A stretch of DNA of 46,249 nt. It comes from a virus. Under the pieces are notes generated by a model, which was not told the DNA's origin, searched no databases, and saw nothing but the letters and a program-made list of their open reading frames with translations. Positions 9,267 through 13,153 of the stretch are shown one piece after another. The stretch spans positions 1 through 46,249 of the IMG/VR virus record IMGVR_UViG_3300032401_000021. One strand, given 5' to 3'. Positions within the stretch are counted from its first letter, which is position 1, and each line of letters starts with the position of its first letter. The translations under genes were made by a program, and so were the position numbers.

Positions 9267-9295
9267 TTGACAAAATATATCTATGACATTATATT
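9267..9295 (+). promoter_or_regulatory. Strong sigma70-type early promoter
   Basis: TTGACA (9267-9272) and TATATT (9290-9295) are separated by exactly 17 bases, the consensus arrangement. It points at the first early gene, whose ATG is at 9337 behind a GGAAAG ribosome binding site. This is the best promoter in the window and should be read by host RNA polymerase at once on infection. Confidence 0.85.
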
Positions 9296-9336: not shown

Positions 9337-9555
9337 ATGAAAACAACAAAAACACAAAAGATCGCAAGAATGGCAGTGATGAACGGATCGAAAAACATGG
9401 GGCACCTGAAAACTCAGATTAACGCAACGACCGACAAGCAGATGTTCTTCATCCTCAACAGATTACAAAGACGTGGGATCATCCAGTGGGAGCGTGGAGC
9501 AGGACGCAATATCATCTTCTCTCTAACCGTAGCGACCGAAGCCTACGCAAGATAG
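9337..9555 (+). CDS. Small basic winged-helix-like early protein
   Basis: A 72-residue, basic protein that is the first gene after the strong early promoter. Residues about 10-60 read as a winged helix: helices IARMAVMNGSKNMGHLKTQI and MFFILNRLQRRGIIQWER, then a wing (GAGRNIIFSLTV). The RLQRRGIIQW segment is typical of recognition-helix ends that precede the wing. It is probably a DNA-binding regulator, though I cannot assign a named family. A hammerhead ribozyme starts 3 bases after its stop codon. Confidence 0.8.
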   Translation: MKTTKTQKIARMAVMNGSKNMGHLKTQINATTDKQMFFILNRLQRRGIIQWERGAGRNIIFSLTVATEAYAR

Positions 9556-9558
9556 AAA

Positions 9559-9610
9559 GGACGAAACGCCCCGCAAGGGCGTCCGATCGTAAACGATCGC
9601 TGACGAGTCC
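9559..9610 (+). ncRNA. Type II hammerhead ribozyme
   Basis: All catalytic core elements are present in the order of a type II (open stem II) hammerhead. Stem II is GGAC (9559-9562) with GUCC (9607-9610). The conserved GAAA is at 9563-9566. Stem III is the A9566-U9582 pair plus CGCCC (9567-9571) with GGGCG (9577-9581) and a 5-nt loop. The cleavage site follows C9583. Stem I is CGATCG (9584-9589) with CGATCG (9594-9599) and a UAAA loop, and the conserved CUGACGA is at 9600-9606. Self-cleavage would separate the mRNA of the first early gene from the next, leaving the latter with a 5' hairpin. The element lies wholly in the intergenic space. Confidence 0.92.
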
Positions 9611-9638
9611 GTCGGAAATAAACCAAAAGGAGACCTAA

Positions 9639-10118
9639 ATGGAAGAAACAAAAGGCGTAAGCCCCGTATGGGAGAAAGTAGTAGATCCTAAGAAGGAAGC
9701 TCGTAAGGCAGAGAAGAAAGCGCGCAGAGAGAAACAACGAGCTCTTCTCGAGAAACTGGGCGCAGCGATGGCCAAGACTCAAGATCAAGAGATCAAGAAG
9801 ATCTGGAACGAGTTTGCGACAGCCCAATCACAGCGTCCTGTTTCTAACGGACAAGCGTCTTATGCCAAGTTCGTTCAGCTCGTAGAAACGAAGAAGAATG
9901 TCTCCGAAGAGGAAATCTTCAAGACATTCCACGTTGGACGAAAGGATTGCGCAGGCTATCTTCGCAAGTATCTTAAGAATGCACTCCCGGAAGAAAGGAT
10001 CTGGATCAACTTCACCCCTTCCGACGGAACCTACAGATTCCTTTCCAAAGGGAAAGAAATGCCGAAGAACTACACCGGATATGTTCCTTCGGACGAGATT
10101 CTCGACATAAGCAAGTAG
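9639..10118 (+). CDS. Hypothetical early protein with basic coiled-coil N-terminus
   Basis: A 159-residue protein with an AAAGGAG ribosome binding site, located between the hammerhead ribozyme and a strong terminator. Residues about 15-60 are Lys/Arg/Glu/Ala-rich and helical (KKEARKAEKKARREKQRALL), likely a coiled coil. Residues about 75-150 look like a compact alpha/beta domain (EEEIFKTFHVGRKDCAGYLR, then NFTPSDGTYRFL), perhaps a winged helix. It may bind nucleic acid or host proteins early in infection. No family recognised. Confidence 0.8.
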   Translation: MEETKGVSPVWEKVVDPKKEARKAEKKARREKQRALLEKLGAAMAKTQDQEIKKIWNEFATAQSQRPVSNGQASYAKFVQLVETKKNVSEEEIFKTFHVGRKDCAGYLRKYLKNALPEERIWINFTPSDGTYRFLSKGKEMPKNYTGYVPSDEILDISK

Positions 10119-10152: not shown

Positions 10153-10180
10153 AAAGGCCGCCCAATGGCGGCCTTTTCTT
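10153..10180 (+). terminator. Rho-independent terminator
   Basis: AAAGGCCGCC (10153-10162) and GGCGGCCTTT (10167-10176) form a perfect 10-bp stem with a 4-nt CAAT loop, followed by TCTT. It ends the short early transcript, so genes beyond 10773 need read-through, antitermination or another promoter. Confidence 0.93.
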
Positions 10181-10709: not shown

Positions 10710-10756
10710 AATAATAATAATAGTAATAATAATAATAGTAATAATAATAATAATAG
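10709..10756 (+). repeat. TAA/AAT trinucleotide microsatellite upstream of pentapeptide gene
   Basis: About 48 bases of imperfect AAT triplets, with two AGT interruptions, end in TAGGAGGAGG, the ribosome binding site of the next gene. Changes in copy number would alter the leader length rather than the frame. Confidence 0.85.
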
Positions 10757-10772
10757 GAGGAGGATAAAAATC

Positions 10773-11333
10773 ATGGAAGAAAACAAAATTAACGAAATCC
10801 TATTAGCGCATAGCCGGTGGATTGCAGGAGGTAAGGATGGAGTTCGAGCCGATCTTCGGGGAGCCAATCTTAGGGGATTCGATCTTCAGGGAGCCGATCT
10901 TCGAAGAGCCTTTTTACAGGGAGCCGATCTTCGAAGAGCCTTTTTACAGGGAGTCGATCTTCGGGAAGCCAATCTTCAGGGAGCCGATCTTCGAAGAGCC
11001 TTTTTACAGGGAGCCGATCTTACAGGCGCCGATCTTACAGGCGCCGATCTTACAGGCGCCGATCTTACAGGCGCCGATCTTACAGGCGCCGATCTTACAG
11101 GCGCCGATCTCATTAGTGGCAGGAAGAAAAAGATTAAGATGAAAAGACTCGCAAACAGAGCGGGTAGATATGCGCTCAATATCTTGGTCGCGTTAGATCA
11201 GTTAATTAACGCTGTTCTTCTCGGCGATCCTAAAGAGACAATCTCGGGCAGAGTCGGTCGTGTAGCGCCGAACTCCAGAATCGCAAAAAGAGATAGACAA
11301 ATTGATGTTCTATCAGAACGATCATTGTCGTAA
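10773..11333 (+). CDS. Pentapeptide-repeat protein with C-terminal phage domain
   Basis: A 186-residue protein starting at ATG 10773 behind AGGAGGAGG. Residues 1-24 form a short cap (EILLAHSRWIAGGKDGVRADL) shared with the second pentapeptide gene. Residues 25-113 are pentapeptide repeats of the A(D/N)LxG type, ending with six perfect DLTGA units coded by six identical 15-bp copies (11016-11105). Such repeats form a right-handed quadrilateral beta-helix and, in Qnr/MfpA relatives, mimic DNA to bind gyrase. The role here is unknown. Residues about 123-186 start with Met (MKRLANRAGRYALNILVALD) and then LINAVLLGDPKETISGR, a pattern found as a stand-alone small phage protein. That segment may be a fused or internally translated domain. 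Confidence 0.87.
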   Translation: MEENKINEILLAHSRWIAGGKDGVRADLRGANLRGFDLQGADLRRAFLQGADLRRAFLQGVDLREANLQGADLRRAFLQGADLTGADLTGADLTGADLTGADLTGADLTGADLISGRKKKIKMKRLANRAGRYALNILVALDQLINAVLLGDPKETISGRVGRVAPNSRIAKRDRQIDVLSERSLS

Positions 11334-12301: not shown

Positions 12302-13153
12302 ATGAATAAAGATAAGATTAAAGAAATTCTATATCTACATCTATCCTGGATTAACCAGTGTGCGGGTGGAGTTCGAGCCGATCTTAAAGGCGCCGATCTT
12401 AAAGGCGCCGATCTTAAAGGCGCCGATCTTAAAGGCGCCGATCTTAAAGGCGCCAATCTTCAGGAAGCCAATCTTCAGGAAGCCCATCTTCAGGAAGCCA
12501 ATCTTCGGGGAGCCAATCTTCGGGGAGCCAATCTTCGGGGAGCCAATCTTCGGGGAGCCAATCTTCAGGGAGCCAATCTTCAGGAAGCCGATCTTAAAGG
12601 AGCCAATCTTCGGGGAGCCAATCTTCAGGAAGCCAATCTTCAGGAAGCCAATCTTCAGGAAGCCCCTCTTCAGGGAGCCCATCTTAAGGGAGCCCATCTT
12701 CGGGGAGCCAATCTTCGGGGAGCCAATCTTCGGGGAGCCAATCTTCAGGGAGCCAATCTTCAGGGAGCCCATCTTCGGGGAGCCAATCTTCAGGGAGCCA
12801 ATCTTCAGGACGCAAATTTCAACGAAGACTATCTAATCTCCTTGACTTCGATACTTCCCGAAGGAACTTTAGTGGGGTATAAGAAGTGTCTAAATCGTGT
12901 AGTAGTTAAGTTGGAGATTCCTTCGGATTCTCGAAGGAGCAATGCAACAGGAAGAAAGTGTCGCGCCGAATACGTTAAAGTGTTGGATGTTTATGGAGCA
13001 GAAAGAGGGACGTCTTCCTACAATCAAAACACACATTACGAGAAGGGTGAGATCGTTACTTGCGACAACTGGGAAGAATGCCGGTGGAGAGAGTGTTCCG
13101 GCGGAATTCATTTCTTTCTCACGAAACGGGAAGCCGAAGGTTATCTGCTGTGA
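12302..13153 (+). CDS. Pentapeptide-repeat protein with DUF5758-like C-terminal domain
   Basis: A 283-residue protein. Residues 1-24 repeat the cap of the first pentapeptide gene (EILYLHLSWINQ, then GGVRADLKG). Residues 25-172 hold about 29 A(N/D)LxG pentapeptides, coded by a 15-bp degenerate tandem repeat, and should fold as one long beta-helix of seven or so coils. Residues 173-283 form a globular domain with GTLVGYKKCLNRVVVKLEIP, RRSNATGRKCRAEYVKVL and WRECSGGIHFFLTKREAEGY. These match the DUF5758 pattern often attached to pentapeptide repeats in phages and large viruses. Function is unknown. A DNA-mimic or host-interaction role is possible. Confidence 0.9.
   Translation: MNKDKIKEILYLHLSWINQCAGGVRADLKGADLKGADLKGADLKGADLKGANLQEANLQEAHLQEANLRGANLRGANLRGANLRGANLQGANLQEADLKGANLRGANLQEANLQEANLQEAPLQGAHLKGAHLRGANLRGANLRGANLQGANLQGAHLRGANLQGANLQDANFNEDYLISLTSILPEGTLVGYKKCLNRVVVKLEIPSDSRRSNATGRKCRAEYVKVLDVYGAERGTSSYNQNTHYEKGEIVTCDNWEECRWRECSGGIHFFLTKREAEGYLL

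Follow-up and report, generated by a model that had tools for sequence, protein, structure and literature searches.

What does a self-cleaving RNA do between two genes of a phage? The question is raised by a hammerhead-like sequence at positions 9559–9610 of IMGVR_UViG_3300032401_000021, a viral DNA record that we analysed over its whole length of 46,249 nt (the window). It is a question that the literature describes as open for the hammerheads of bacteria and phages (PMC6155905). According to Perreault et al. 2011 (PMC3088659), type II hammerheads cluster around single phage genes, tandem arrays were cleaved in vitro and one array was cleaved in vivo in E. coli, and mRNA processing was proposed as the likely role of the type. 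For the present locus we consider it probable (about 75%) that a self-cleaving type II hammerhead acts as punctuation within a short transcription unit, between its two genes.

Anatomy of the ribozyme and of the candidate two-gene unit

The original prediction named GAAA at 9563–9566, CUGACGA at 9600–9606 and the sizes and order of three helices, and every one of these elements was found in the sequence at its coordinates:

9558, + strand: conserved A (A-1) immediately 5′ of stem II, recognized by its frequency in copies and its covariation with a U of loop I
9559–9610, + strand: type II hammerhead ribozyme, from its core, the Rfam alignment and the subfamily model R1
9559–9562, + strand: 5′ strand of stem II, GGAC, an open helix of 4 bp with GUCC at 9607–9610 that covaries in relatives
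9563–9566, + strand: core G12-A13-A14-A15.1 (GAAA)
9566–9582, + strand: stem III hairpin ACGCCC-CGCAA-GGGCGU, the A15.1-U16.1 pair (A9566-U9582) plus 5 bp (9567–9571/9577–9581)
9583–9584, + strand: predicted cleavage site between C9583 (C17) and C9584, placed by hammerhead numbering
9584–9599, + strand: stem I hairpin CGAUCG-UAAA-CGAUCG (strands 9584–9589/9594–9599), from sequence, folds and covariation
9600–9606, + strand: core CUGACGA (C3-A9), aligned by both Rfam and R1
9607–9610, + strand: 3′ strand of stem II, GUCC

The window copy has the CUGANGA...GAAA core, the A15.1-U16.1 pair and a UH cleavage triplet, and loops close stems I and III while stem II is open, i.e., the topology of type II. 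Together with the covariation, the held-out model score and the orthologous copy in a related phage described below, this supports the assignment of 9559–9610 as a complete type II hammerhead. The nucleotide at the predicted cleavage position is C in 331 of 338 copies, and the downstream RNA would have the stem I hairpin as its blunt 5′ end. Loop I of the window copy has only 4 nt (UAAA); the usual loop, UNANG, is longer, which counts against the reading that we prefer.

The ribozyme is surrounded by the following features:

9267–9295, + strand: sigma-70-like promoter TTGACA-17-TATATT upstream of gene 1, a consensus match only (11 of 12 consensus bases)
9337–9555, + strand: gene 1, encoding a 72-aa protein with weak winged-helix-like matches, all below the curated Pfam cut-offs; stop codon TAG at 9553–9555
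9627–9632, + strand: Shine-Dalgarno sequence AAGGAG of gene 2
9639–10118, + strand: gene 2, encoding a 159-aa lysine-rich protein without a family, orthologues 37 and 43% identical
10156–10180, + strand: terminator-like hairpin GGCCGCC-CAAU-GGCGGCC followed by UUUUCUU, read from the sequence and unlisted by a simple scan

The stop codon of gene 1 ends 3 nt 5′ of the ribozyme, and gene 2 starts 28 nt 3′ of it, behind AAGGAG. The ribozyme is intergenic between two co-directional genes, as is its orthologue in the related phage L234. Judging from this spacing, genes 1 and 2 probably share a transcript, and the terminator-like hairpin would close the candidate two-gene unit. Promoter-like sites were no more numerous in this region than in shuffled sequences. 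The predicted location between the first two early genes held with regard to the co-directional gap, whereas "early" is no more than plausible, from the sigma-70-like promoter and the position. No tRNA or tmRNA genes were found at the ribozyme loci or in the window.

Scores, controls and covariation

The pattern of invariant letters matched once in the 46,249-base record, and neither on the reverse strand nor in a control read backwards. A check against the Rfam type II model, as had been proposed, gave a mixed outcome: RF02276 (Hammerhead_II) aligned to exactly the expected bases of the window (E 0.0015 in a 301-nt search) with 26.9 bits, under the gathering cut-off of 37 bits, which is a property of the model rather than of the fold. 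Because of this difference, a default Rfam scan of the whole window reports nothing. RF02276 scores of the subtype to which the window copy belongs were 26.9 and 21.3 bits, and no copy of it reached the cut-off in the 26 stretches tested; since the subtype escapes this threshold, phage annotations will under-report it. A subfamily covariance model (R1), built from 50 diverse copies with the window copy left out, scored the latter with 60.6 bits (E 8e-15, whole-window search).

Copies of the element are numerous. The conserved letters alone matched at least 119 IMG/VR stretches, and when 1.95 Mb of fetched loci were scanned for the structure, there were 405 matches forward and none in the reversed control, giving 340 distinct copies across 200 loci. 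With stem I unconstrained, at least 5 bp formed there in 97% of 117 distinct copies, compared with 1% after shuffling of the letters. With stem II left free except for its first base, per-position pairing was 98–100% in 121 copies; as many as four or more pair types occurred, and pairing ended after 4 bp. All three stems covary: 50 diverse copies displayed 236 double-sided changes over 16 pairs, with invariant letters in the catalytic core and stems free to change. In the same set 97.7% of cells were paired vs 30–41% in slid registers, a percentage that is biased upwards because the scan selecting these copies demands some pairing; more weight attaches to how varied the pair types are.

Conservation is also seen in synteny. 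L234, whose terminase is 61% identical, possesses homologues of both flanking genes and, in the same gap, a hammerhead (53.8 bits) whose stems I and III differ in sequence; the TAG stop codon upstream overlaps the first G of its ribozyme. A chance match or a decayed, inactive ribozyme, to which the score below the Rfam gathering cut-off might point, is hence scarcely credible: the held-out copy reached 60.6 bits, the reversed controls gave zero matches, the syntenic L234 copy has compensatory changes, and in the stretches tested Rfam fails to report any member of the subtype.

We also looked for a similar element in named phages; across 50,697 phage records, a distant DNA search yielded nothing beyond matches of a chance-like kind that lay outside the ribozyme.

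Position relative to genes

That mRNA processing is the function, as originally predicted from one locus, gains support from the position of hundreds of copies between co-directional genes. These statistics come from a direct test of reading frames, independent of any gene caller, chosen because a naive caller predicted numerous spurious ORFs on the strand opposite the copies. A stop codon of the upstream frame lay within −15 to +12 nt of the ribozyme start in 62.5% of cases vs 7.2% of random sites, most commonly as TAG with its G shared by stem II (41), followed by an abutting TAA (29). Downstream, a start codon with Shine-Dalgarno sequence and open frame followed within 90 nt in 265 of 324 cases (median 24 nt), compared with 30% of random sites. 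At all 67 loci with two or more copies, these were on a single strand, with a median spacing of 562 nt. Some phages carry five to eight copies, about one per gene; L046 has eight in 8.2 kb and L037 seven, and gene-ribozyme-gene series occur in L046, L104, L037 and L044. This arrangement suggests that these phages may divide long transcripts into pieces of one gene each, with no protein involved. The idea of mRNA punctuation becomes directly testable with such data, i.e., a stop codon touching the ribozyme, a start about 24 nt further on, one strand and about one copy per gene.

For the window, the proposed order of events is as follows. The unit would run from the promoter at 9267 through gene 1, the ribozyme and gene 2 to the terminator-like hairpin. 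The co-transcript would fold shortly after position 9610 has been synthesized and cut itself between C9583 and C9584. As stems I and III are closed in type II, both new ends would carry a hairpin: the 3′ end of the gene 1 mRNA would consist of stem III plus UC and bear a 2′,3′-cyclic phosphate, and the gene 2 mRNA would begin with the blunt stem I hairpin and a 5′-OH. Only the 4-bp stem II would then hold the pieces together. The tail CGUCGG of the window would pair with CUGACG, displacing stem II, releasing the upstream piece and making the cut irreversible, after which the two mRNAs would separate in stability and translation. Cleavage itself, its timing, the refolding and any effect on decay are steps that we infer from the sequence.

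A tail that may refold the 3′ product

Directly 3′ of GUCC, the window continues with GUCGG, complementary to CUGAC of the core, which allows a further structure:

9600–9615, + strand: alternative hairpin CUGACG-AGUC-CGUCGG, mutually exclusive with stem II, predicted by folding the precursor and the 3′ product

Folded in isolation, the 3′ product of the window forms two neighbouring hairpins, as does that of L234 with its different tail letters. At least four Watson-Crick pairs between CUGAN and the tail were possible in 29% of copies vs 5.7% with shuffled tails. The tail nucleotide opposite core base 7 matches this base (T-A 29, T-G 2, C-A 2, C-G 18), with a p value of 1e-9 raw and 0.0001–0.015 after dereplication. 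Five or more pairs occurred in 15–19% of dereplicated copies, compared with 1–2% for shuffled tails and 8–10% with base 7 permuted. Since strong complementarity is restricted to about 15–19% of the dereplicated copies, refolding is no general requirement.

The same tail is the basis of a different reading, in which the ribozyme is active but regulatory, instead of separating two stable mRNAs: cleavage would make one product accessible to decay, or the alternative hairpin would keep the ribozyme inactive until a certain condition arises, and one gene would be turned down. The computed minimum-energy fold of the precursor, from an energy model that ignores the hammerhead core and tertiary contacts, contains the alternative CUGACG/CGUCGG hairpin instead of stem II, so that the ribozyme could partly misfold, and an inhibitory role of the tail before cleavage is conceivable. 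Core base 7 covaries with the tail, and regulated cleavage was raised for phage hammerheads by Perreault et al. 2011 (PMC3088659). We nevertheless judge regulation unlikely, as the series with one copy per gene look like constitutive punctuation, and transcription reaches the tail only once the whole ribozyme has been made, so that cleavage could come before refolding.

Returning to punctuation, its generalization to many phages can be offered only tentatively, at odds somewhat against it: type II hammerheads embedded in stop codons and devoid of the pseudoknot would separate messages gene by gene, leaving a hairpin on both ends, and in a subset a tail covarying with core position 7 would refold, eject the upstream RNA and render the cut irreversible. 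If true, the second structure would partly explain the natural freedom of core position 7.

Other structures in orthologous gaps

Two more distant orthologous gene pairs, in L233 and in L236/L237, contain no hammerhead in the same gap, a point against the preferred reading. In L233 (4803–4838), the position of the hammerhead is taken by a 7-bp plus 6-bp UUCG hairpin (fold z −4.1), which may be an RNase III-type site. The gap of L237 (3889–3926; the same region in L236) reads GCUGG-(9 nt)-AGCCGGUUCAACUCCGGCU-CCAGC, which resembles a tRNA T-arm-like minihelix; its fold is no more stable than shuffles (z −1.5), and it gave a weak match to a tmRNA 3′ end (E 0.03). This minihelix might be an RNase P substrate and possibly an alternative processing device in the place of the hammerhead. 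Rfam searches of these gaps in L233 and L237 returned nothing convincing. Four lineages offer the suggestion that the gap favours some structured element, of which the hammerhead would be one kind.

The hairpins without a hammerhead in L233 and L237 would fit a plain structured spacer, which would shield mRNA ends or draw in a host nuclease by means of its hairpins, with self-cleavage not under selection. This seems quite improbable to us, as CUGANGA, GAAA and the UH cleavage triplet are kept while the stems vary, which would not be the case for a hairpin alone.

A subtype with a 4-bp stem II

Stem II is strictly 4 bp across the subtype. Classical type I and III hammerheads (GUCC-loop-GGAC) likewise have a 4-bp GUCC/GGAC stem II. 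Core, topology, occurrence in phage genomes and clusters flanking single genes are as in published type II hammerheads (RF02276; PMC3088659), in which, by contrast, stem II often has 1–2 bp. The same source describes a pseudoknot between loop I and the 3′ tail for most type II members, of which we found little sign: 3-bp matches between loop I and tail were as frequent as with shuffled tails (19.2% vs 18.2%), 4-bp matches were slightly enriched (4.7% vs 2.2%), and the UAAA loop of the window copy has no complement in its tail. We therefore rejected this pseudoknot for the subtype.

Instead, an A just 5′ of stem II, present in 314 of 340 copies and kept in 209 of the 224 whose stop codon does not touch the position, is coupled to loop I. 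Where A-1 is present, the first unpaired base of loop I is U in 306 copies vs 7 with another base; where it is absent, the ratio is 4 vs 22, i.e., there is usually another loop type (p 1e-24; 1e-4 to 1e-5 after strict dereplication). From this covariation, we infer that loop I makes a tertiary contact with the open end of stem II, as would be expected from the loop-loop contacts in type I and III hammerheads. A loop I U beside an A beyond stem II is reminiscent of the reverse-Hoogsteen contact described for type I and III (PMC6155905). Unlike there, stem II is the open end here, so that what would be loop II lies partly in the upstream and partly in the downstream RNA. The pseudoknot hammerhead (structure 8YDC; PMC11300833) and the pistol ribozyme likewise combine hammerhead chemistry with a stabilizing tertiary element; in 8YDC a pseudoknot replaces helix II, whereas the subtype has a normal 4-bp helix II and no evident pseudoknot.

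Phage type II hammerheads that cut mRNA were already proposed in 2011; apparently new are the pseudoknot-less 4-bp subtype, its overlap with stop codons and the putative refolding tail. The original prediction had not picked up the absent pseudoknot, the usual contact with the stop codon or the possible pairing of the tail with the catalytic strand. None of the three features was described in the literature searched, whose coverage is incomplete; the supplementary alignment of Perreault et al. may include members.

In copies at L089, L219, L221, L228, L230, L231 and L232, T replaces the A before stem II; several of them are in actinobacterial genomes (Saccharopolyspora, Lentzea, Sciscionella). 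These copies have a different loop I in common, of a GGRAUNGAGACC type, apparently a second, separate tertiary module.

Further features of the window

Just 3′ of gene 2, the segment 10327–10625 contains many GGCGTAACA/TGTTACGCC 9-mers, direct and inverted, including a perfect 25-nt inverted repeat (10413–10437/10491–10515); it looks like replication-origin iterons or a protein-binding array. A run of AAT-type triplet repeats (10710–10754) lies immediately 5′ of the first of two genes for pentapeptide-repeat-like proteins (10773–11333 and 12302–13153), which have an N-terminal family in common (phrog_7713). The product of 17442–18365 matches a TET-associated glycosyltransferase (PF20691, E 7.6e-7), from which the phage may have hypermodified DNA bases.
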